A DNA stretch of 64,000 bases from Lepisosteus oculatus (taxonomy: Eukaryota; Chordata; Actinopteri; Semionotiformes; Lepisosteidae). The first letter of the stretch is position 1, and each line of letters starts with the position of its first letter. The notes under the pieces were generated by a model. The model had not been told where the DNA came from and did not search any database. It saw only the letters and a list, made by a program, of their open reading frames with translations. Shown in pieces: positions 1,799 to 59,300 of the stretch. The position numbers and the translations under genes were made by a program. The stretch spans positions 12,725,532 to 12,789,531 of the forward strand of contig NC_090718.1 in NCBI RefSeq assembly GCF_040954835.1, in the 5' to 3' direction.

Positions 1799-10302
<8,504 letters not shown>

Positions 10303-13620: not shown

Positions 13621-13737
13621 AAAGGATTTTTGAACACCTTCGCTTACTTAGCTTGCGCCCTGAAAAACAGTTTTACTTTTGTGCAACGGTCAGATAACGA
13701 CACTAACCCCGAATTCACAGTTACTACATCGGACTGT

Positions 13738-13868
13738 AGTAGTTCGGGTGGGTAGCTGCGTCAGCATGCGTAGGCTGCAAAGGATCAAGTGATAGGTTTA
13801 TTCCATGCTGAAAACAGAAGAAAGAAAACACAGCGTTTCGGCCGTGGAGCCTTCTTCAGGTGTCATAC
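13738..13868 (-). mobile_element. Short retro-type foldback family, single-arm copy with 16-bp target duplication
   Basis: The 131 bp insert is flanked by the perfect 16-mer TACTACATCGGACTGT at 13722-13737 and 13869-13884. On the minus strand it reads CCTGAAGAAGGCTCC, then ACGGCCGAAACGC, a T-rich tract ending TTTTCAG, GGAATAAACC, CCTTTGCAGCC, and a GCATGCTGACGCAGCTACCC end. The same unit recurs near 16901, 41990, 44145 and 49876. Long target duplications point to retrotransposition and not to cut-and-paste. Family not recognised for certain. Confidence 0.7.
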
Positions 13869-14150
13869 TACTACATCGGACTGTTTAATGTGCAGGAGGG
13901 CTATCCGTCCAGGAATGGCGAATAGTACATAGTGGCTACACTGCGTGTCAACATTATTACGATCTTGTTTGCTCAGGTGGACCGATTTCTTGCAGTAGTT
14001 TATCCTTATGCTTACAATCGTTATACATCTAGGAGTTATAGAAGTTTTTCCTTTCTGTTGGTTTTACAACTATATTTTATTAACGATTCAGAACCTCGTT
14101 ACCGTCGATGTAGCTGCAAAAATAAACGTGTATGCTCTTTTGTCGCTTCG

Positions 14151-14570
14151 GCAGCTATATCACCCTGCAACTCACAACTGTCAGCCCCACTGCAGCTCAG
14201 CAGGAGTGAGCCTGGTCAGTACCTGGATGGGAGACCTCCTGGGAAAAACTAAGGCTACTGCTGGAAGAGGTGTTAGTGGGGCCAGCAGGGGGCGCTCACC
14301 CTGTGGTCCATGTGGGTCCTAATGCCCCAGTATAGTGATGGGGACACTATACTGTAAACAGGCACCGTCCTTCGGATGAGAAGTAAAACCAAGGTCCTGG
14401 CTCTCTGTGGTCATTAAAAGTCCCAGGGTGTTTCTCGTAAAGAGTAGGGGTGTTACCCTCGGAGCCCTGGCTAGATTTCCCATTGGCCCTTACCAATCAT
14501 GGCCTCCTAATAATCCCCATATATGAACTGGCTTCATTACTCTGCTCTCCTCCCCATTGATCGCTGAGGT
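14151..14570 (+). repeat. 5S rRNA-headed SINE, longest plus-strand copy
   Basis: The head (about 14153-14250) keeps the 3' half of 5S rRNA: AGCTCAGCAGG, then CCTGGTCAGTACCTGGATGG, then GAGACCTCCTGGGAA, covering the pol III C-box region. Next come a body with CCAGCAGGGGGCGCT (14282-14296), CCAGTATAGTGATGGGGACA, and CCTTCGGATGAGA. The copy stops before the GGAGTCCCC tail that other copies show. The 5S-like head assigns it to the 5S-derived (SINE3-type) class. Confidence 0.8.
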
Positions 14571-15339: not shown

Positions 15340-16900
15340 ACTCAATTAAGGGATTTTTTTAAGAGCGTGGTGGGAATGAAAACCAGGACAGGAATGTCAG
15401 CTTCAAGAACCCGGATTGGAAATGCCTGGAGTTGAGTGGAGGGGGTGGTGCTGCTGCCTTGAGCTGTTAGGGAAGGTGAGAGCAGCCTTAGCTCTTCCGT
15501 TTCATGCAATTCCAGGACTTGCAGCCTTCCAGCCCGATAAACTCGTGCCTGACTGTAACCTTAATTACTTCAGATGTTGAAGATCGCCTTTGATAATAAT
15601 TTTGTAGTATTATAGAATTATTTATTTTTTAATAATATTCCACCACTGAAAATTAAGTAAGACAATACTTCATCTCTATTGCCGATGTGTTTCCCCCCAT
15701 AAAAGCCGGTTTTAGACCAACGTGATATGCTGTATCTGCTCTGTACTGAAGGCTGAGGACGATTAGAGGGCAGGCGCATGTGTGATTTATCCGCCTGCGG
15801 CGATTACTTTAATTTTCGAGTTGAGCGCGTTTATTCCCTAATAATTGAATCGTTTAATAGCGTAATCACTTCGTAGAGTCGTTGGTGATTGCTATTTAAG
15901 ACTTGATTGTATATTAAACACGTGAAAATTATTACTTTAATTAAAACGGCGAAAAGGTGGTTTGAATTATTTGCGTAATTGACTGCGTCTCGCCACGTGC
16001 GGATGTGAAGCTCGGTTTCTACCTGAGTGGCTAAGAGTCACTGGTGACGTCAAACACACAGGCCTCTCGAATCGACTTTGATCAGTGGTTAATCGGTTTT
16101 TCCCTGTTTAGGCACCAGGTGTCGCCCTTTTCCTAGGTTTTGGACGGTTTTTGGTTTTCGTGCGCAAGCGACAGCGATGCGATTTGGTTTGTTCTGATCG
16201 GAGAAAATTAATGTTCGTTACAAGGGTGCTTCCGGTGGTTCTCTTGGCACTTTTTTCAAAATGAGATTTTTTGCGCATATAATTGAACATTCAAGGAAAC
16301 GGCGTTGAAACTAAATGGTTTAAGTGCCTCCCAGCTGCTGAAAATTCCTAATTAAGGATTTGATTGGCTACCAGTTGATCCAGGGCTTTTCAATTCCGAG
16401 CAGGATTTCTGACATTTCTAAATTATTCAGTAGTAAAGATCCATGACTGCTAATTAATAGCTCTTTTTAGCAGTAATAGATGTATATAAAATAAATGATA
16501 AAAACGGGGGAATTAATATTTAATGCGTTCAGGATACAGAACTGATTATCTGTATCTTGAGATACACTTTGTCTACATAGAGATTAATCATACTGTATAC
16601 AAGACGTCCAAACAAAAGATTTGCTGCCCTTAGAAAGAAAATCATATAATAAATTGTCCAATCAGAACTGAATATCGGGCGTGGCTTTTTTGGATTTTGC
16701 ACTACTGCAGTCCACACACGTGCTCGAATAATGTAAGAAGTTCACGGAAAAAGACACCGTGATACATATGATACAGTATACTACAAAAATGTCAGTGATG
16801 ACCTAACGTTTTCTTTAAAAACAGAAGCAGATTTTGATCATATTGATATTATAAATACTCCTGATCCCCCAAACACAAGCTCAACATTATATTATTATAA
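15340..16900. other. Spacer sequence, no gene seen
   Basis: AT-rich single-copy-looking DNA. The piece at about 15740-16010 is less AT-rich in places, with CpG-bearing words and an NCACGTGN word at about 15993. This could be a conserved noncoding element, but I cannot test that from one sequence. Confidence 0.4.
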
Positions 16901-17076
16901 GTAATGGGTTTATTCCATGCTGAAAAAAAAGAAGAAAGAGAACACAACGTGAGATTGTGAAAGAGAACACAGAGCCTTCTTCCACGGCCGAAACGTTGTG
17001 TTCTTTTTTTCAGTATGGAATAAACCTAGTACTTGTTCCTTTGCAGCCCACGCATGCTGACGCAGCTACCCACCTG
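16901..17076. mobile_element. Short retro-type foldback family, two-arm copy with 15-bp target duplication
   Basis: The 176 bp insert is flanked by ATTATATTATTATAA at 16886-16900 and 17077-17091. The flanks are AT-rich, so chance is less excluded than at 13738. The left arm (GGTTTATTCCATGCTGAAAA ... AACACAACGT) is the reverse complement of the right arm (AACGTTGTGTTC ... CAGTATGGAATAAACC). The join lies near the GAGCCTTCTTCCACGGCC centre. Only the right arm keeps the outer GCATGCTGACGCAGCTACCC end. Confidence 0.7.
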
Positions 17077-17240
17077 ATTATATTATTATAATTATTATTG
17101 TGTTATTTTTCTATGTACTAAGGCCTGAGCGACACTCACTGGCAAAGCCTAAGGCGTCAAACTAGTCATTGAATCAGGCTTGGTATCTAAACTGGAATAT
17201 TAACTTTGGGAAGATGTACTGTATTCCATACCGATGTACT

Positions 17241-19992: not shown

Positions 19993-29149
<9,157 letters not shown>

Positions 29150-32794: not shown

Positions 32795-35700
32795 CTAGGC
32801 CTTCATGAGGGCGCCGACCACAGCCTTGGCGTTGAGGCTACGCAGGTCGCTATAGGTCTGCCCAGTGCCCACAAACACGATGGGCTGGCCGGTGATGTAC
32901 GTCATCGAAATGGCAGCCCCCACCTGAGGAACCACAGAACAACAGAGGAAAGGGGTGAGAAACCCAGGATCATGCCCTTAGTGGGGACTGGGAAATCATG
33001 TTAGATCATAAGGTCACTAATAACTCCTTACACTTATATAGCGCTTTTCTGGACACTCCACTCAAAGCGCTTTACAGGTAATGGGGACTCCCCTCCATCA
33101 CCACCAGTGTGCAGCCCCACCTGGATGATGCAACGGCAGCCATAGTGCACCAGTACGCTCCCAAAACATCAGCAGATTTTAACACTGCATTGCAATCACC
33201 CCATTACTACAGCCAGATCCATCTTTCTATGTAAAATATATATTTAGGGATTCTTATTTTTTCCACCCCATTTAAAAAGAAGCTCATGGTTTTATCTTTC
33301 CCCTCCCTTTGAACCGGGAAAACTAAACCCCCTTAACCACTTCATATAGGACTTCCATATAGGAGAAAAATGAGTTCCTGAACTGAACTGTTGCCTGCTG
33401 CTATACAAACCTTGTCGTCGATGGTGTCGAACTTGGTGAGGACGATGCCGTCGATGAGCCGCGGTTTATCAGACATGGAGTGGTCAGCCAGGGCCTGGTT
33501 AAACTTGACCTGCGGGGGGACGCAAAGCCACAGCCTGACTTGTGGGGACAAAACGCGCACCAGATGCCCACAAACCCGCAAAATGACAAAAGCAGCACGG
33601 TATATACTGTCCGTGCTGAAAAAGACCAGCATTCTTAAGATTCTTGGATCCTGAATGAGCCTGAAACAGCGACTTGCGGACAAGCACAGGAGCGCCCTCT
33701 CCTGGAATGTTACCGGTAATGGCCTGCAACTTGAAATGCGCCCCTCCCGCTTTTCAAATCAAACAAATAAAACACACCAATCAAAATGAATAGCACAAGG
33801 CAGCAGATACATTTCATAATATAACTCCAATAGTTCCCCCCAGGTAAGTCAAGTGGGGAGGGGAAAAAACTTGAAAAACGTCTCCCACTTAGCCTGCTCT
33901 CTCTCTCTCACTCACTCACACAGAGCAAGGACGCGGCGGGCACTGACCAGCTGGTCGACGGCCTCATTGCCCACCAGGGCCTCCCCCACGAACAGCACCA
34001 GGTCGGGCATGTTGACGGCGATCAGCTTGGCCAGGGCGGTCATCAGGGGGGCGTTGTCCTGCATGCGGCCTGCTGTGTCCACCAGCACCACGTCAAAACC
34101 CTGGTTCCGGGCTGAGCGGGGAAAAAAAGCAGGTCTTTTTTTGCTTTTCTGCAAACAAGATCTCGGCCTGGCAAAGCCAAACAAATCTGCTAATGGCACG
34201 TTTGAGCCGTAGTCTATATGTGACAGCATAACATTAAAAAATAGGAAAAATAATAATTCCTGATAAGCTTTATAGCGCTTTTCTGGACACTCCACTCAAA
34301 GCGCTTTACAGGTAATGGGGACTCCCCTCCACCACCACCACCAGTATCCCCACCTGGATGATGCACCAGTACTCTCACCACACACCACCTCTTAGTGGGG
34401 AGGAGAGCAGAGTGATGGAAGATTTCGAGAAACTCCCTGGGATTTTTAATGACCACAGAGTCAGGACCTTGGTTTTACAGTTGCAAGAAAAAGTTTGTGA
34501 ACCATTTCCAACATTAATTGCTCATAAAAATGTGGTCTGAAAAAGTAGGGCTACTAAGTCACAATAAAAGACAAACACAATTTGCTTAAACTAATAACAC
34601 ACAAACAATTGTACTTCTTGTCAATATTTAACACTCGTTGAGAAAGGATTTTTCTTGCAACTGTACGTCTCATCCGAAGGACAGCGCCTTATAATAGTAC
34701 AGTGTCCCCGTCACTATACTGGGGCATTAGGACCCACACAGACCGCAGGGTGAGCGCCCCCTGCTGGCCCCACTAACACCTCTTCATGCAGCAACCTTAG
34801 TTTTTCCCAGGAGGTCTCCCATCCAGGTACTGACCAGGCTCACACCTGCTGAGCTGCAGTGGGGCTGGGAGCTGCAGGGTGATATGGCTGCTGGCAAATA
34901 ATCGTGTCTCTTCAACGACACTGAAGCAGTCTGAACGTTTTGATGTGTATTTAACTGAAGCGAAGGGGCTGGGGGCCTGCGGTTACCGTAGGCGATGGCC
35001 TCCATGGCGATGCCGGCGGCGTCCTTGCCGTAGCCCTTCTCGTAGAGCTGCACGCGGGGCCGCCCGCCGGCCTGCGCCTCGGGCGGGTGCAGGGCGCTGA
35101 GGCGCCGCTGGTGGGTGCGCAGCTGCTCCACCGCCCCGGCCCGGAAGGTGTCGCAGGCGGCGATCAGCACCGTGAAGCCGTTCTCGATGAGCCAGAAGGA
35201 GATCTGCGGAGGACGGGGGAGCAGTGAGACCGCAGCTACCGTCCTCTCAAGCTGCGACGGGCTGATAAGGACGTTTTCTTCCCCCAAACGTCTGCCTTTG
35301 GATTTTGGCACATACCCTTGGCTGACCACCTCGAGATGAATGCAAACGGCCCGAGAGACTGAAATGTCTGGGATCAATTAACTCCGCACTATCAAAACGA
35401 CCTAGAGGGGTCCAACGGGGCCTTTGTGACCGTTCTTACGCTGGGGCAGGCTAATGATGACACTAAGGCAGTGTAGTGTAGTGTATTATGTTCACACTTG
35501 TTTTTTTCCACCTTTTTTTTACATTTTTGTAAATTACACCTGGCGTGTGACCAACTTGGGATGAATTTAACAGCTCCAGCGACTGAAACGTCTGGATGAA
35601 ACCCTGGGATCAATTAACCACTCACTACCAAACGAGCTAGAGGGGGCAAATGAGTATTTTAATAATAATTCCTTACACTTATATAGCGCTTTTCTGGACA

Positions 35701-41700: not shown

Positions 41701-43033
41701 GAGATTTTTAAACCGATTTAAAACCTTTCCCTCGGAATTAAAATGAACCACTTGTACAACACTAAATTACTTACAACGAACACCAGCTCAAACTCATTGT
41801 CCAGTTTGTACTTGAGGCTTAAGGAATCGTAGGTGAAGGAATTGTTCCCACTGCGCTCCTAGAAAAAAAAAAGGCTGCATCAGTACTAGAAGGTTTTATT
41901 ATAGTCCACTCTCGACAACCAATTCTCCCCAACAGCACAGTCTGGCGCTCAGATTGCTTCACAACACTATGGGGCACAAAGCACACTTCAAAGGAACAAG
42001 TAAAGGTTTATTCCAGGCTGAAAAGAGAAGAAAAGAAACACAATGTTTCGGCTGTGGAGCCTTCCTGAAGAAACATCGTGTCTCCTTTCTTTCTAGCACG
42101 GAATAAACCTTTATTCGTCTCTTTGCAGCCTCCGCATGCCGACACGGCTCGCTACCTGCACAAAGCACGCTTCTATGTCCATGTTAAGCTCAAGAGTGAC
42201 AGACCACACAGAGCATGCTTCTGATCCACCTCATCAGAACAGGAGATCACAATAAACTTTTCAAATGAGAGGATCTTGCTGGGGTTCACTAGTGCCACCC
42301 ATTTGTAAAGAATCGAAGCTTTTACTTGAAAACAGCCAAGGTCAGCTTCGACATCGCCGCTTGCTCCACACTCCTACCACTCTTTGTGTAAAGGGCCACG
42401 GCTATAAGCACTGCTTACGACAGGCGCTTGCAGGCTTACTACGATTACAGCTCATTTTCTTCCCGATATTTGTGACACGAACACACTGGAAAATATTTAA
42501 GGGATCTTAAGACCCTGCTCAGGCAAGGCGTTAAGAAGAGACGACAATTACCAATTAAAGAAGACCTCGCCCATCTACCATAATCAGCAAAAGGAATAAA
42601 CTAATGATAATGAGTTGCTGTTGTTTTGTTTGCATAAATCAAAGCACGTTCAGACATGCAACTCCATAAAGCTGTCACTTGGAAAAGCCATAAGGAACGG
42701 AAAACATAAAAACAGGACTCGATTGCGAAAAAGCACAACTTGCTTTTTAAAGGACCAGGAAAAGGGTGCGCATTTGTTGTTTGCAATCAATGTTATCTGG
42801 GGCTCGTTAAACGATCCCAGCTCGCTGCAGCCAAGCGAACCTCGCCGCCGGCCGGCTCCCCCGGCGCTGACAGCTGTCACGCTGGGTCCGTCTCTCCGCG
42901 TCGCCGTTACCTGCAGAATGACGGAGCGGATGAGCGCATTGACAGGCCCCGTGAAGGACCCGCTGGCGCCGGCCCCCTGGAAGCACCACAGCACGATGCC
43001 TCCTTTGCTGAAGATGGTGAAAAAATCCAACAT
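32795..43033 (-). CDS. srpra: Signal recognition particle receptor subunit alpha (SRP docking protein)
   Basis: SRPRA is the SRP-family GTPase that docks the SRP-ribosome complex on the ER membrane through SRPRB. I place 14 coding exons in transcript order: 42911-43033, 41775-41858, 40942-41105, 40199-40356, 39356-39542, 38781-38934, 38289-38419, 37792-37910, 37254-37340, 36175-36347, 34987-35203, 33948-34111, 33411-33509, 32795-32923. They sum to 1989 nt, 662 aa (human 638). The N-terminal SRX domain starts [13 protein letters not shown] charged linker includes a run of 14 consecutive Glu coded near 38317-38360. The NG domain has GVNGVGKST (G1, residues 448-456), DTAGR (544-548) and TKFD (612-615), ending in a VVGALMKA C-terminus. 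The extra length lies in the linker. Two or three linker exons have tandem AG acceptors, so small in-frame variants are possible. The introns are crowded with 5S-headed SINEs. Confidence 0.95.
33018..33173 (-). repeat. 5S-headed SINE, 3' fragment in SRPRA intron
   Basis: Tail blocks CTTATATAGCGCTTTTCTGG, CTCAAAGCGCTTTACAGG, GGGGACTCCCCTCC and CAGCCCCACCTGGATGATGC are present, then the copy ends near CATCAGCAG. Confidence 0.75.
34247..34894 (-). repeat. 5S-headed SINE, full-length copy split by a Tc1-like MITE
   Basis: This runs from the TATAGCGCTTTTCTGG tail block to the 5S head (CCATCCAGGTACTGACCAGG at about 34821-34840 and the CACCTGCTGAGC block), all on the minus strand. The CTCF-type word is at 34753-34767. 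The copy is interrupted at its GGTTTTA/CGTCTCATCC site by a 186 bp insert (34478-34663). Removing it restores the family sequence. Confidence 0.85.
34478..34663. mobile_element. Tc1/mariner-type MITE with TA target duplication
   Basis: It starts CAGTTGCAAGAAAAAGTTTG and ends in AAGGATTTTTCTTGCAACTG, so the ends are inverted repeats (TTGCAAGAAAAA). TA lies on both sides (34476-34477 and 34664-34665), the TA duplication of Tc1/mariner elements. The CAGTTGCAAGAAAAAG end is typical of fish Tc1-like families. No transposase frame remains, so it is non-autonomous. Confidence 0.88.
35661..35980 (-). repeat. 5S-headed SINE, 3' two-thirds
   Basis: The copy runs from the (AAT)n and CTTATATAGCGC tail to the TACATCTCATCCGAAGGACG block, then stops before the CTCF-type word and the head. 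It sits in the SRPRA intron between the exons at 34987-35203 and 36175-36347. Confidence 0.8.
36603..36990 (-). repeat. 5S-headed SINE, near full-length, internally shortened copy
   Basis: It holds the tail, a shortened body, the CTCF-type word (36847-36861, as CCAGTAGGGGGCGTT) and a decayed 5S head (CATCCAGGTACTGGCCAGGC, CACCTGCTGAGC). Confidence 0.8.
38010..38225. repeat. 54-bp minisatellite, four units
   Basis: Units start at 38010, 38064, 38118 and 38172. Each opens GCACGCGTCTCATCTGCCTG and contains GAACACCGAAGGAGC. The first three are nearly identical; the fourth is more diverged. It lies in the SRPRA intron 37911-38288. Because the unit is a multiple of 3, both strands stay open through it, but neither frame joins the SRPRA exons. 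Confidence 0.92.
39117..39195 (+). repeat. 5S-headed SINE, 3' tail fragment
   Basis: GGAGGGGAGTCCCCCTTACT, AAAGCGTTTCGAGAGGAGTG, and CCAGAAAAGCGCTATACCAG match the tail of the family on the plus strand. Confidence 0.7.
40526..40797 (+). repeat. 5S-headed SINE, 3' half
   Basis: The copy reads from GAGTAGGGGTGTTACCCCGG through CTGATAGCTGGTGTGTGGTG to CACAAGTATATGAAATTATT. It lacks the head and the CTCF-type word. Confidence 0.78.
41990..42157. mobile_element. Short retro-type foldback family, two-arm copy with 16-bp target duplication
   Basis: The 168 bp insert is flanked by GCACAAAGCACACTTC (41974-41989) and GCACAAAGCACGCTTC (42158-42173), which differ at one base. Left arm AAGGTTTATTCCAGGCTGAA faces the right arm AGCACGGAATAAACCTTTAT. 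The right outer end is GCAGCCTCCGCATGCCGACA, a decayed form of the family end. It lies in SRPRA intron 1. Confidence 0.85.
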
Positions 43034-43597: not shown

Positions 43598-46500
43598 ATG
43601 GCAACGTGGAGCGGTTGTTTGCGGGTCGCCAGAGCCAGGACTGGCACCGTCAGCCACGGCTGCAGGTTCGTTGAGCATGCCCTCCGGACACCTGTCAGCC
43701 CCAGGGGCTTCAGCACCGGCAAAACGACCCGACAGGACTTCTTTAAAGGTGACTTCTGTTCGTTTTTTCCCCCTAAGTACGCCATGCATTTGCTTCTAAG
43801 ATAACAAGAAATCATCTTTGCTGGCAATACATTATTATTACTAAAAACACCAATACCTTTTCATGTTTTATGTGCTTACTGTTAGATTATTAACTGTAGT
43901 GTATGGTTACTAACAAATTTATCTTTGAGCTATGAGGGGCTAAAACCCAGCAGTGAAGAGAATCGCGGTCAAATATTTCATGCATAGTTCAGTTTCCACT
44001 GAAATAGCCGTGTGTCATAAAATGAGATTTCTGTTAGAATGAGATGGAATGAAATCATTCATTAGCAGTTGCCATTTTATTTAAAATACTGGGGCAAACA
44101 TTTTATCCAAACTAGTGACAAGTTGCCCGCCAGGTGCATGTTTGCACTGGGACAGGTAAAGGTTTATTCTGTGCTGAAAGGAAAAGAAAAAAAGAGACAC
44201 AGCATCGTCACACACCTGCTCCACAGCGATGACTGTTGTCTCTCTTTTCCTTTCCATACAGAATAAACTTTTCCTTGTCCCTTTTGCAGCCTACGCATGC
44301 TGACCCAGCTGTTTGAAGTCAGACCTGTAGTCCCCAGTTATATCAGACATGACGTCCCGAAAGCACTGGGACACGGTCTTGATTCTGCAGTCCCACTGCG
44401 TGTCCTGGGCTTTGTGGAGCGGTGCTTTTGCTAAATGTTTGACTCAACGAATTAATCAGTCATTTCCACATGCAAGTCCTTGGTGCTGATTAGCTCAGAC
44501 TTGAACCTGGTTTCCAGGACGAAAGATGAAAGGTGACTCCCCCCCCCCCCTTCCTGGGTGGGCCTCCAGACTGTGATAGGGATGCACCCAAGCCCACAGG
44601 GCTGATCCCCTCTTAGACAGCTGGGGGGGACTGGAGCAACTGGTAGAGCGGCAGTGTCTGCAGCAGGTACTCGAACCTGCACCCCCCCCCAGTAAACACC
44701 GCAGCTCAGTAATGTCACCGTCACTGAGCACAGCCCTGTCCTGTCCTGTTCCTCCCGCGCAGATCTGGAGGCGCAGCTGAAGGCGTTCCGGGAGAAAGCG
44801 GCCGCGGTTCTCCCCACCAGCGGCTGGACCCCCCCGGAGATCAACCCCGACCCGCCTCCCGAGCGGGCCGACGTCGTGATCGTGGGCGGCGGGGTGGTGG
44901 GCTGGTCCGTGGCCTACTGGCTGAAGAGGAAGCAGAAGTTCCCGGAGAGGTTTGAAGTGGTCGTGGTGGAGAAAGACCCTACGGTGGGTGCCGGCCGACG
45001 GGCTGGGGAGAAGTGGAAGAGAAATGGCCTTAATCTATATATTAATAATCCTGCTTCCTATACATTGCTGCAGTGTTCGCCTTAGGGTGGGCGAGTCGTA
45101 CTTGCATGCACAGTTAATGTTATACCTTATATCCAACGTGTCGTCTGTGTACAGTACAGACCCCTGCATCGGAGGGGCTGATAATCTGGTGAGTGGGAAC
45201 ACAGCCGCTGCCGAATGGTTACAGAGGCACTTTTAATTAGCATGGCCGCCATTCCTCCCCCAGGGGGCGCCCCACTACTCCTGTCATTAGTTCCGGGATT
45301 GTTGCCGTGTTCCCCAGGTCTGGCCTGTTGTCTACTGTTATTTAAAGCCTAGCTCCAGTCCTCGGGGCTCAACATTAGGGTACGGGTGTCATGAAGGCCG
45401 CCTAGCACCAGGAAACCCTACGTCCGTCTCCTGAGGGCATAGGCCTCATCCCCGACACCTCCCGGGGTCTGAGCCTGGGGTCTGGAGGATCTCCCCCCGT
45501 TATCCCAGGATCTCCACGTTTTGCGGTGTGTTTTCCCCCTACCAGGGGATTTTAACCCTACTCGCATCAGAGGATGGATTCATTGTTAATGGACTTTTGG
45601 ACTGTGCCCTGACCTGCCTTTGGACCTGCTCGGATTTGGATGCCATTCTTTGTCTCCCCGGCTCACTGTCTCATGGACTGTCACTATTCTTTTGTGCACC
45701 ATTACCCAGTTTTCCCATACCGCGCCTCCTGTTTCCTCCAGCTCTTACCCAATCACATAGGCTCCACTACAAAACCCGACACGGACTGCAGACGACGTCC
45801 GTAACGCTGAAGGGGTTTTTTCCATGGATCTCAAGCTCAAAGAAGTGCTGTAATCGTGATCTCCTGAACCCAATGTGTGGAAATAACAGCCTGAAAAGGT
45901 TTTGCAGAGGAAGGAGCAAGGCACAGCTCTAGCAGTGTACCTTATGACAGGGTTATCTAATAAATAACTCAAAACTGTACTATATTATATTAGGGTCCTG
46001 TTTCAGTTAGGAATCTCAATTTTTGTTTCTGTTTGGTATCACGAAACTGATTGAAAAAGGAATTCCTTCATTTGCAAACTGTATTGGCATTGTCCAGACC
46101 ACAAAATACTACTATTTCGGCTTGTAATTTTTTTTTTTATTTTGGAGTCATTTCTTTCCTTTCCCTTTTCCGTTGCAGTATTCCCAAGCTTCCACTGTGC
46201 TCTCTGCTGGAGGGATCCGACAGCAGTTCTCCATGCTTGAAAACATCCGCCTCTCTCTGGACTCTTCCATGTTCTTGAAGAACATCAATGTAAGAGCATG
46301 GAAGGTGTTAGCAAGCAGACCAAGGCTATAAGGAGTTCATATGCCTTTTCTTCCTAGCATGTTACTCGGATTAATTGCCAGGTACATTCGTTGAGCATCG
46401 GGAATTGGGGTAACCAGCTGTTCCTCGATAAAGTGTTGGGACAGGAATTGACAATCAAGGAAAAGGCCCACATTTTGTATAGCTTATAGCACAAGGCTGG

Positions 46501-49500: not shown

Positions 49501-52500
49501 CTTCGCTCTCTGAATGTGTAACATCTACTGTCGGATCCAGTTGCCTGAGGATGCGGTCATCTTGTAGTGTGCCAGAACAATATATTCCTGTCGTTCATTC
49601 AGAATGTATGGCTTTCCCAATTTTGCTTTATTGTTGACATTGCAGACGTTGTAAAACAGATTTGTAACCTCACAGCTTTTGTTTTCTGGGCGACATGTAC
49701 TGCAAAGAAACCAAACTGGTTTTGTCAGAGACCCTTTCATACATGTCTTACTGTTTCGGTGATCTGGTTACTCCTTTTACATTTTCTGTCTTTCCTGCGC
49801 TGTGTAATGATTGTTAGCTTCCTCTTGACATCGCAGACTGCTAGTCAGGGCTGCTGCCATCAGTATTATCAAGCAGGTAGCTGCATCAGCATGCGTAGGC
49901 TGCAAAGGGGCAAGTAAAGGTTTATTCCATGCTGAAAAGAGAAGACAAACAGTGGAGCTTTCTTCAGGTGTACTATCATATCCATTTCCTCACAGAAGAA
50001 CAAGAGCAGGCTCTTTGTGTGAAGTCAATGGAATCTCTGGTTCTCCATCTTTCTGTGGGAGCTCTTCCTCGTTCTGTACCCACTCAGGTCCGCATTCCCA
50101 ACAGCCTGGAGCAGTACTCCATAAAGTGCAGCGCGTTGGTGAACGCCGCCGGCGCGCAGTCCGGGAAGGTGGCGGAGCTGGCTGGCATCGGCGTGGACCC
50201 CGCCAACACCACGAGCAATATGCCTGTCCCGGTGGAGCCCCGCAAGAGGTACGTGGCGTCGCCGGTTACCCACCCTCAGTCAGTCCGGTGTGCAGCTTGT
50301 TTCTTCCTTCTCGAGGAAGGAGGACGTAAACTCTACATATTTATTGTGTCATACAGGTGTCTGTGTAGTAGAAGTCTCTTTATTTCATATGCATATGGAA
50401 GAACAGCTAGTGACCACCAGACTCAAAAATAAGTAACTAAAGATGGTCTTTTATACCTTAAAACAAACAAGTTGCTACGTCACTTTCTGAACAAATGATA
50501 AGACAGCAACACATGCCAATATTGTAATTAATTATACCTGAGTTGCAGACTAGACAACAGTAAGTTCTTTTCATATGTTCTGGGCACACAGCCAGCTTAC
50601 CAAATACATGCCCTTTATCTCACTGACCAAGGACAGGCAGTATATTTACATATTTGGGTGCAAAGCCAACGTCTAGCCACTAGACTGCATAGTTTACAAA
50701 AAATGATATTATTATCTCACTTCCCAGGTGTCTCCCTTATCTCTTCATATTCCCACATGAAGAGGACAGGAATTTAAATTCACATCATCATTATTACCTA
50801 GAAATATTGTCATATGCTCTTTGGCAGGGGAAATAAAAACACCTCTTGTTTTCTCGTTTGTATTTTCTGAATGTCCTCCAGAACATGGTGATGCAGCTGG
50901 AGCAAACTGAAAATTCTGTTTTCTGAACATGAGCGACAGATTAGCAGCTGCAGATGTTTCACAGGACAAAAAAAACTCTTTAGCAAGCGGAGACGTTCGG
51001 TTTGTCTCCTTGTGTAAAGACTGTCCTCAGTCCGCCGTAAGGTGTATCGCTAAATGAAGATTAATGGTAAGATGGCGGGTGCTACAGCTGAACTGAAAAT
51101 AAATCATGTAGCTTATTCCCTCCTCCCCCCCCCCCCCAGTCACTGGGTGTAATGCTTCTTGATTCCCAAACTCTGGCAGATGTAGCCCAGTGTATCTGTC
51201 CAGATGCAGTATTCAGGACTGGTGAATCGTTGAAAGCGGAAAGGGTTCACTGGTGACTTCAGGGTTTTGGAAACGTGCTTATTCTGTGCACCCTCTCAAT
51301 CCCCCTCCAGGTACATCTATGTCGTTCACTGTCCTGATGGGCCTGGGTTAGACATGCCCTTCGTCATCGACTACTCAGGCTTTTACATCAGAAGAGAAGG
51401 ACTGGGGGGCAACTACATTACAGGAAAGTCCCCTGAGGAGGTGAGCAAGGAGGCTGGACTGGGTGAAGACTATGCATAGTGATGCAAAAACATAATTTAA
51501 GCAGACTGCCAAGTTACATAGAGAGTATCTTCTTTGAGGGTGCTCATCTGCAGCAGTGAGTTCCTCGGGTGGTTTTCCCAACGCAGAAGTCAAACGATTT
51601 AGAATCTCTTATGACACTCTTGGATGTTCAGGCGTTACGAATTGATCAGAAACAATGCAAATGAGATTTAACGAGAAGCTCACCCGTTTTAATAACCTGC
51701 TACCCGCCGTACAGAAGTGTTTGCTGAAGTTGTCAAATATACAGTAAAACACTCTTAAGATGGTTTAATTCATTTTTAATAAACTGCAGTCATTTATGAG
51801 TGATTTAATCCTACACAGTGAGATGCTATGAATGAGATGCTGGGCCTGATCTACTGTAGTTTACAGCATAATCTACTGTTTGGATATGAAATGCTTTCTT
51901 TCTCTTGCTTCTCTGAGGTAGAAAGTACAAATGCTTGACAATTTCTGGTCCAGAGTTTTATACCACACTTTGCCAAATGTTTGCTGTTGTTCAGGAAGAA
52001 GAGCCAGACACCAGTGACCTGGAAGTGGATCATGAGTTCTTCCATGAGCAAGTGTGGCCCAGATTAGCCAGCCGAATCCCATGTTTCGAGAGCCTGAAGG
52101 TGGGTCAGTGAGCAGAGTGTAAGAGATGAGGTTTTAGTACTTTCATTGACATTTGCATCCTGCAGCTTCAGTATATTATTTTAAAAGTAAGCTCTTTGTC
52201 AAAAATATGCTTTCCATCCATCATTGCTGCATGTTTATGATTCCTATATTAAGGAAAATTGATTTCTAAGAACAGAGGATCTCATTTAGACAGTGGCTTG
52301 ATGGCAGTGATAAATGAGATCCACTGCATTAATAACCAGTGCCTGGAGAGCTTAAACTACACAATCTGTTTTCCTTTATGTAGCTATGACTTGGATAGCC
52401 CCTGCAGCTGCCTGAAAGTATACAGACAGGACTGAAACCAAGGAGAGAAAAAGAACATGGGATTAAGCTCTTCTTGTTCCTTACTATACACCATACTGTA

Positions 52501-56328: not shown

Positions 56329-59300
56329 CTATCCACTTAGCGTCATCTTCTCTTCAACAGAATTTCGCTTTTGTTTCTTCGTCAGCAGGTCTGCCACTGA
56401 CTGCCCTTTGCGTTTCATTCCTGGAAGAAAAGGAAATACACTTTATCATCATCATCCATTCTGAAGGGAAGAGTCAAGACGGTTAAATGCTTATTTTTCT
56501 TTTCACTTGGCCCTAGGAACCGCAGTTCAACAGGAAAACTGGTCAGGCTCAGAATCCGGCCAGTGGAAGCATAAGGAAGTACTCTGCTCTGCGGACACCT
56601 TCCGTACGAGAATGTTAAAGTTGCACTTGGAAACTGTTCCAATCCTTCTCCGTGTCCTCAGTCTCACCTTTCCCCGTGCCCTCTTGCTCGCCACCGAGTT
56701 GGGCACGCCGTGCGTATGCCAGCTTCATCCTCTGGATGTTCTTCTTGCTGACTACATCATGGTCCACAATTGGCCGGGGGTAATCTTTTCCCACAATGCA
56801 CCCTGCTTGCTCTTGGACGCTGCGTGGCGCCTTCCAGGGCTCGTAGATATATGCCGATGGGAACTTTTTGAGTACAGGCAGGTACTTCCTATAACAGGAT
56901 AGAGACTGTCAAGGAACTCCCTCCATTCCCTAAATCAGGGAATAAAAGCCATAGAATAGTGGGCACTGTTTCTGAGGCACTAACGTACCAAAGAAGGGAT
57001 TTCTTATTCCTTTATATTAATATGTGAAGGTCAATTTGCGATTTTGTTTATATGCCATAAGACAATAAATCTTCAATAGGTGTCGTAATATCAACTTGAC
57101 GTGAATAAACGAAAGAGAATCGAAACCCAGTTAAAGAATATTTACTTTGGCAAATGGTGCAACTGTAAATTTAAGAGCAATGAAGCCTCATATGAAATGT
57201 ATTCCGCGGGTCTTCCTCAGATTGTCTGCATTAATTTGTAATTAAACATCCGTTATATAAAAAAAAATGCTTCCCAGTGAACAGCTGACCATGCTCTGGA
57301 CTTCAGAATGTCCCTGCTGCTGCTCAGCGAGGCCCATGGGATGAAGTCGGGGCTCTGCGGTACCTGATGTAGTCCCCGTTCTTGTCCGTCTTCTTCCCGA
57401 AGGCGATGGGAGAGTAGACCCTGTAGTACTGGTGGAAGAAAGCGCTGGCTGACAACCACTGCCAGTTGCCAGCGTTCAGGGCCCAGTCTGCATCCAGCAG
57501 CAGCTCCTCGAACACCTGAAACAGGTACCAGACACAAGCCCCTCAGGCCCCACGTACGCGCTACAGAGGAAAGGGGGCGGAGCCAATCATCAAACTGTAA
57601 TCTGTGACTGTCAAGGGGCGGGGGGGTGGAAAACCTATCTGCCTTCAAAACCTAGGACTATAATCTGCAAGGCCAACATTTGTCTTAGTAGTGTAGTGTT
57701 TGGTTAACACATACTCTTTGATAACGTGTACAATCACTTAAACGTTTCATTCAGATGAAGGCCATTAGAAAAGAAAACAGACTCTCAGCCTTTCCCTGCA
57801 ACACATCTTGGAATATTTTGTGGAGAAAATATAACCTTCCGAGGAACGATAACAAAAGCAAAGCAAAGCAAGGCGAGTGGTTTTTTGTCCCAGAAAATTT
57901 CATTTATAAACAGGCACTATGCATCGGCGCCGACGCCAACCCCAGGCTGTGAACCTATCCCTTCATGGGCTGCAGTCCGTTTCCTTTTAATGGCGCTTTT
58001 CTATCCTAGGAAAAACCGATGGCGAGCATGTAGTTAAAAAAAACTTGTTCGATTAAGGAAAATGGAAACGGCAGGGGTTGGGGGGGATAGAGAACGAGGC
58101 GTTTGCGAACGGGACAGAGCAGCACAGACGGCTTTCCTCCTGACCTTCTGGCCCTCCTGCCAGCTGATCCAGAGGTCTCCGCGCGTGAGGAAACAGGCCA
58201 CGGCGTGCCTGGCCAGGTGATGGACCCAGCCCTCGGACCGCAGCTGGGTCATGATGGCGTCGATGAAGGGGAAGCCCGTGCAACCCTGTGACACACACAC
58301 ACGCACGGACACTTGTGGGACAGAACGAGCAGCAGCGCTTGACGTAACCAGCCAGCCTGAAGAGCAGGCAGGCTGGGATAACCCATTTTCACTCGGGTAA
58401 CTAAATTATTCAAAACGGGGATGTTCGAGGAGTTGGGTGGTGTTGGTGTGCAAGATGAAGAACCTTCCTTAGAGAGCCTACAGCTCGTGAGTATTGGCCA
58501 TGGAGAGACAAGACCCTCTTGGCTCTTCGAGAGCACCTTTGGCATTGCTCATCACGGCCTTTTCACTCGCACTAATACGGGGGGGGGTCTTCCTTGGTTC
58601 TGGCGGCAGTGGGGGGTTCAGACTCACAAGCCCCTCCCGATCGCTCACCTCCCGCCAAGCCGCCAGGTGTTCTCCGTTCTCGTCCCAGTCGATCTGCACA
58701 CAAACCGGGTTGCCCTCCATGCGGTCGAAGTTGGGGATGCCCAGGCCGGCGGTGTAGAAGAATTCCCTCCACAGCAGCTGGCCGTGCAGGGAGACGGGGG
58801 GCTCCGAGTGCTTCCGCTGTAGGAAACAGACTCCAACTGTGCTCAGCCTTAACAGGACACGGCACGGTGTGCCACATCGTAAGAGACACAAAGCAAAGCA
58901 GGTGGTGGCTTGACCTGCTTGGACGTCTGGAAGGAAGAGGCTTAGCTTACATATAATGGATGAAGCATTAAAGCCGTCCAGGGCCAACCAGGAGGCAAGT
59001 GCCAGTTACTTTTAAGAAAATGGTTAGATAAGGCTCCATTCTTGCGCCCAGCTAACACAAAGCTGACAAAATCTTGCGCGGAGAAAGCACCAGGGGTGTG
59101 AGCAGCGTTTTAGACGGCATCCCTCAGTTCTGCTTGTTCGTTTAGTTTTGTACAGAGCTGAGAGATAAGCAAACCAAGCAGCACGTCTTATGAAGTTCAC
59201 GAGGGGCGGTTTTATTTCCAAAGTCGGGCAGACCCTCACCCCGCGGTACACGTCGGTCAGTCTCCACCAAAACGTGCGCGCCGACAGGCAGCCGAACTTC

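Follow-up and report, generated by a model that had tools for sequence, protein, structure and literature searches.

Minimal hammerhead ribozymes of Penelope-like elements (PLEs) were reportedly described by Cervera and De la Pena in 2014 and by Lunse et al. in 2017, and are said to act as dimers. Retrozymes, the animal ones included, carry tandem ribozyme units placed one monomer apart. Reviews, in the portions available to us, attribute to animal PLEs minimal type I hammerheads that have no helix III. Two PLE systems are close enough for a detailed comparison, and both are cited here from parts of the respective reports. In A. vaga Penelope elements, inverted pseudo-LTRs (pLTRs) are found, the pLTR extends into the start of the ORF, the commonest inverted arrangement is head to head, a 31-bp tail is optionally present on one of the inverted pLTRs, and target duplications measure 8–10 bp or are absent; the authors prefer self-priming on an antisense template as the origin of the inverted arms (PMC3846280). 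In the PLE of the anole Anolis carolinensis (PAc), each of the two DNA strands is cut and extended, an AC-rich site 111–118 nt into the ORF serves as the internal start of reverse transcription on the RNA, the ribozyme cut lies at +26 and the tail of 30–40 bp corresponds to the stretch between two reverse-transcription start sites; the element prefers AT-rich DNA, its ribozyme does not cleave in the absence of its protein, and the main template in vitro is unprocessed RNA (PMC11167929). A cut at +26 and a start at 111–118 give a cut-to-start distance of 85–92 nt. Other literature drawn on, again in part, comprises PMC7761336, PMC6155905, PMC12910113 and PMC6431247.

The window analysed here is the whole stretch of 64 000 nt of Lepisosteus oculatus DNA. 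It belongs to a gene-bearing animal region, since exons of STT3A (8259–8705), of the SRP receptor alpha gene (33915–34295, minus strand), of an animal cryptochrome (58037–58405, minus strand) and of a SIR2-like gene (a weak match, E = 0.005) were matched; 25180–25701 and 34787–35377 are further exon-matching stretches. A preliminary description, made from the letters alone, had claimed five related copies of a short element in this window, and their relationship was borne out both by blastn, in which the best E-values of copy 1 against copies 2, 5, 3 and 4 were 4e-30, 1e-23, 2e-21 and 4e-11, respectively, and by an arm profile. The profile, built from six arms, returned eight arms at the five places (E = 6e-11 and 4e-7 for the two arms outside the model), with the next match at E = 0.16. 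Exact-pattern searches of the viral_contigs and genome_contigs collections and a blastn search of phages with copy 1 gave no match; the host is not expected in these collections. The copies are as follows.

13738–13868, minus strand: copy 1, a single arm with tail in which the hammerhead region is kept (blastn, arm profile)
16901–17076, plus strand: copy 2, two head-to-head arms with the tail on the right (plus) arm (blastn, arm profile, fold)
41990–42157, plus strand: copy 3, two head-to-head arms with the tail on the right arm (blastn, arm profile)
44145–44315, plus strand: copy 4, two head-to-head arms, the most decayed copy, duplication not convincing (blastn, arm profile)
49876–49970, minus strand: copy 5, a single arm with tail, CTGAAGA kept, GAAAC and cut site lost, duplication not convincing

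We consider it very probable that these copies are old, decayed and strongly 5'-truncated insertions, that is pseudo-LTR ends, of a PLE of the Penelope/Poseidon type which carried a minimal hammerhead and moved by target-primed reverse transcription.

By the plan and numbering of hammerheads, the two paired strands of stem I lie one 5' of CUGANGA and the other 3' of H17. A likeness of CTGAAGA, a GGC/GCC hairpin and GAAAC to such a core had been pointed out previously and holds, with the correction that copy 1 carries it on the minus strand, which reads GACAC-CUGAAGA-A-GGCUCCACGGCC-GAAA-CGC-U-GUGUU and can be divided as follows (all minus strand).

13860–13864, minus strand: hammerhead stem I, 5' strand GACAC (in-register fold)
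13853–13859, minus strand: hammerhead core CUGAAGA
13840–13851, minus strand: hammerhead stem II with its loop, GGCUCCACGGCC; an unpaired A is at 13852
13836–13839, minus strand: GAAA of the core, including A15.1
13832–13835, minus strand: C15.2, G16.2, position 16.1 and H17, which is U; cleavage is expected between 13832 and 13831
13827–13831, minus strand: hammerhead stem I, 3' strand GUGUU

Stem I (GACAC/GUGUU) has five pairs, one of them G-U. Stem II consists of GGC/GCC, or of four pairs if a U-A of the loop is counted, and adjoins the unpaired A at 13852, so that the three-pair stem II with an unpaired A, previously held against a hammerhead, is indeed seen. Stem III is loopless and 2 bp long (A15.1–16.1 and C15.2–G16.2). 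Stems I and III, which the preliminary description could not place, have thus both found a position, and its doubts about them are answered by the fact that PLE hammerheads devoid of helix III are in print, at least in the portions of the literature cited above. Position 16.1 is C in copy 1 and T in the other arms that keep GAAAC (right arm of copy 2, left and right arms of copy 3). The resemblance to the minimal PLE hammerheads lies in a type I core with no helix III loop; the differences are the damage found in every copy and, apparently, the additional unpaired A that separates stem II from the core.

The window contains six CTGANGA..GAAA cores when both strands are considered, and only one of them, that of copy 1 (13827–13864, minus strand), has H17 together with four or more pairs in stem I, three or more in stem II and one or more in stem III; in 300 random windows having the dinucleotide frequencies of this window, none of 904 cores did so. 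For folding, we also used a family version, namely copy 1 with the U provided by the sister arms at 16.1, a letter chosen before folding. Its unconstrained best fold consists of exactly stems I and II. When the non-core letters were shuffled 20 000 times, both stems formed in register in 2 cases, a figure which is somewhat favourable because the test was devised after the fold had been seen; stem I alone formed in 69 cases and stem II alone in 375. The sequence features of the minimal PLE hammerheads (core, stems I and II, UH cut site and loopless helix III) are all present in the family version, and all but 16.1 in copy 1. It can be noted that for 13827–13864 the single letter at 16.1 decides the predicted best fold: C gives a plain hairpin, U the hammerhead stems.

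That hairpin could in principle be the whole story: the GGCUCCACGGCCGAAAC stretch would then be a simple CACGGC/GCUGUG hairpin and no ribozyme relic, irrespective of whether the ends are Penelope-like. Copy 1 itself, with C at 16.1, does adopt it as its best fold (−10.2 versus −8.7 kcal/mol). However, the hammerhead stems become the best fold with the sister-arm letter at 16.1, and the core letters, the cut site and stem I match the hammerhead plan at positions that are fixed in advance, which makes the plain hairpin improbable. As for the dimer, a hammerhead (−15.7) is not the best dimeric fold, even in the family version (−20.6).

None of the five copies has a complete hammerhead. CUGANGA is missing from the right arm of copy 2 and from the left arm of copy 3, the right arm of copy 3 has no stem II, and both arms of copy 3 have A instead of G at 16.2, which breaks the 2-bp stem III; both core parts are missing from copy 4, and GAAAC and the cut site from copy 5. 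The covariance-model check suggested earlier gave no hammerhead, either in the whole window at the Rfam gathering score or, with the limit relaxed to E = 10, in the surroundings of copies 1 and 2. The only Rfam matches at the gathering score in the window were two 5S rRNA-like stretches (14147–14266, plus strand, 47.4 bits, and 34783–34895, minus strand, 46.6 bits); close to the 3' end the two have deviations from the consensus in common, and they are probably 5S-derived SINEs rather than 5S genes. Motifs of this kind are weak when unassisted according to published work, as with the anole ribozyme mentioned above. For the family RNA we infer past ribozyme activity.

The arrangement of the arms provides the second line of comparison. 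Copies 2–4 each consist of two arms fused head to head as inverted repeats, and copies 1 and 5 of one arm. In each arm of copies 2–4, read outwards and with variations, the ribozyme region is followed by a pyrimidine tract and GGAATAAACC. From the AATAAAC anchor to the arm end, the right and left arms measure 51 and 7 nt in copy 2, 49 and 16 nt in copy 3, and 47 and 17 nt in copy 4, which gives the right arm an excess of 44, 33 and 30 nt, respectively; counted from the cut site, copy 2 has an excess of 34 nt and copy 3 one of 28 nt, the two measures disagreeing since the pyrimidine tract, too, varies between the arms. The single arms are of the long kind, with 58 nt (copy 1) and 44 nt (copy 5) after the anchor. 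The distance from the cut site to the outer end is 94, 79 and 80 nt in the long arms of copies 1, 2 and 3, and 45 and 52 nt in the short arms of copies 2 and 3; the shared CCACC is reached after 85 nt in copy 1 and 77 nt in copy 2. In copy 1 the tail can be placed approximately.

13747–13786, minus strand: approximate 3' tail, ending in AC-rich CAGCUACCCACC, the likely region of the reverse-transcription start

Copy 1 extends 9 nt beyond this tail (13738–13746). Folding gave a z-score of −9.3 for positions 16901–17026 of copy 2. That the 3' tail forms a stable stem-loop was not supported, its fold being no better than those of shuffled sequences (z = 0.12 and 0.15). At the other extremity, the first letters of copies 1 and 5 (GTATGACACCTG and CACCTG, respectively) belong to stem I or lie a little 5' of it, and the arm junctions of copies 2 and 3 are within the ribozyme region. 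The insertions end or switch strand in or near the hammerhead, as is clear for all but copy 4, where decay leaves the point uncertain.

Head-to-head pLTR-like arms with a tail of the 30–40 bp type on one of them (copies 2–4) are a PLE feature, and recall the inverted head-to-head pLTRs and the optional tail of A. vaga Penelope, target duplications being a further point in common. With the anole PLE the shared points are a hammerhead near an internal reverse-transcription start and an AC-rich 3' end; the cut-to-end distances of 94, 79 and 80 nt are near the 85–92 nt of that element, none of them falling inside the range.

Target duplication is another PLE feature present here, in three of the five copies. 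The preliminary description had reported repeats of 15–16 bp at the borders of three copies, and these were confirmed.

13722–13737: left 16-bp target duplication of copy 1 (16/16 identical)
13869–13884: right 16-bp target duplication of copy 1 (16/16)
16886–16900: left 15-bp target duplication of copy 2, made of A and T only (15/15)
17077–17091: right 15-bp target duplication of copy 2 (15/15)
41974–41989: left 16-bp target duplication of copy 3 (15/16)
42158–42173: right 16-bp target duplication of copy 3 (15/16)

The repeat scores of copies 1–5 are 16, 15, 12, 4 and 5, the first three exceeding those of all 3000 random site pairs (top score 11). Copies 4 and 5, flanked by repeats of only 7/8 and 8/9, have no convincing duplication, since scores of at least 4 and at least 5 were reached by 144 and 56 of the random pairs, respectively. 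The duplication of copy 2 is the weaker evidence because its repeat is a simple, low-complexity ATT run. These duplications are longer than those of A. vaga Penelope (8–10 bp or none). The AT fraction of the targets is 1.0 for copy 2, 0.56 for copy 1 and 0.50 for copy 3, against 0.53 for the window, so that only one of the three marked targets, that of copy 2, conforms to the preference of the anole PLE for AT-rich DNA.

Two other kinds of element can be weighed against this anatomy. The near-palindromic structure of copies 2–4 would suit a fold-back DNA transposon or MITE mobilized by a transposase, the arms being its terminal inverted repeats and the likeness to a hammerhead a matter of chance. 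Duplications of 15–16 bp do not suit the usual transposases. Together with arm lengths that differ by 30–44 nt, the single-armed copies 1 and 5, and stems in register that are improbable by chance (the 2 in 20 000 given above), they speak against this reading, which we reject as highly improbable. An animal retrozyme, that is a non-autonomous element with type I hammerheads which spreads via circular RNAs, would account for a short non-autonomous element with a type I-like core and a weak helix III; the reviews, in the portions cited, state that amphibian retrozyme hammerheads are likewise devoid of a clear helix III, but also that most type I hammerheads have tertiary contacts. No tandem hammerhead units were found in the window, where the arms are only single or head to head, and the ends are of the Penelope type. 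Such arms, their inequality due to the tail and the long flanking duplications argue against a retrozyme, and we reject it as highly improbable.

Among the window's ORFs of 110 amino acids or more, 85 in number, no Penelope reverse transcriptase or GIY-YIG domain was detected (20 scanned at E up to 0.1 and 65 at E up to 0.01; 84 were scanned in exactly the window's letters and the remaining one, at 25307–25714, in a differing form, probably with its first codon taken as a start), and the copies themselves are too short to encode one. Membership of the PLEs is therefore based on end anatomy and the ribozyme, not on an enzyme; compared with Penelope/Poseidon PLEs, this family is known from short ends only, with no ORF. 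The reading as a Penelope-like element with a hammerhead is well supported: stems I and II are present, stem III is of the minimal kind, a UH site is in place, and the arms are head to head and carry a tail.

For this Penelope-type element the following course of insertion can be proposed. The RNA would carry the minimal hammerhead at the pLTR/ORF junction, by analogy with described PLEs, and a putative element endonuclease would cut the target with a stagger of ~15 bp. Reverse transcription would start inside the RNA, either ~79–94 nt 3' of the ribozyme cut site, yielding the long arms of copies 1–3, or at an alternative start ~45–52 nt 3' of it, giving copies 2 and 3 their short arms. It would proceed into or through the ribozyme and then halt. 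If both target strands served as primers, the two cDNAs could join in head-to-head orientation, which would account for the two-armed copies. Target-primed reverse transcription of a PLE RNA from two strands would explain why the head-to-head arms are unequal, why the duplications are long and why the junctions fall at the ribozyme. Alternatively, the inverted arms could stem from self-priming on an antisense template, as preferred by the A. vaga authors, rather than from two-strand priming.

The preliminary description had proposed a non-autonomous Penelope-like derivative. Its Penelope-like character and the hammerhead are well supported; as to a dedicated non-autonomous family, plain 5' truncation of an autonomous element explains the copies equally well. 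Such a family would be a SINE-like derivative of ~95–175 bp, with its own transcription and moved in trans by the Penelope enzyme. In its favour, all five copies are short, copies 1 and 5 begin at stem I or slightly 5' of it, and copies 2 and 3 have their junctions in the ribozyme region. However, five copies are few, and the same outcome results from 5' truncation or from a reverse transcriptase that stalls on structured RNA; we hold a dedicated family to be distinctly unlikely and retain truncated insertions of a PLE.

What the truncated insertions say about the ribozyme can be considered from the cut site itself. In four arms (copy 1, right arm of copy 2, left and right arms of copy 3) the sequence runs unbroken from GAAAC across the cut site, so the template RNAs of these arms were uncleaved at the ribozyme. 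This agrees with the in vitro result for the anole PLE, whose main template is unprocessed RNA according to the part of that report cited here (PMC11167929). A more tentative idea, which we think rather unlikely, is that the ribozyme region sets the cDNA ends, the folded RNA or a bound protein halting the reverse transcriptase and thereby producing short two-armed inserts; if true, this would be a role of the PLE ribozyme other than cleavage.

Hammerheads in PLEs, mentioned as known in the preliminary description, are indeed already in print, in the portions of the literature cited, and the kind of element is therefore not new. The locus adds one example in which the tail, the inverted arms and the ribozyme junction are directly readable. 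Were 5' ends throughout the genome to accumulate at the ribozyme, the role of PLE hammerheads, so far unexplained, would become testable.
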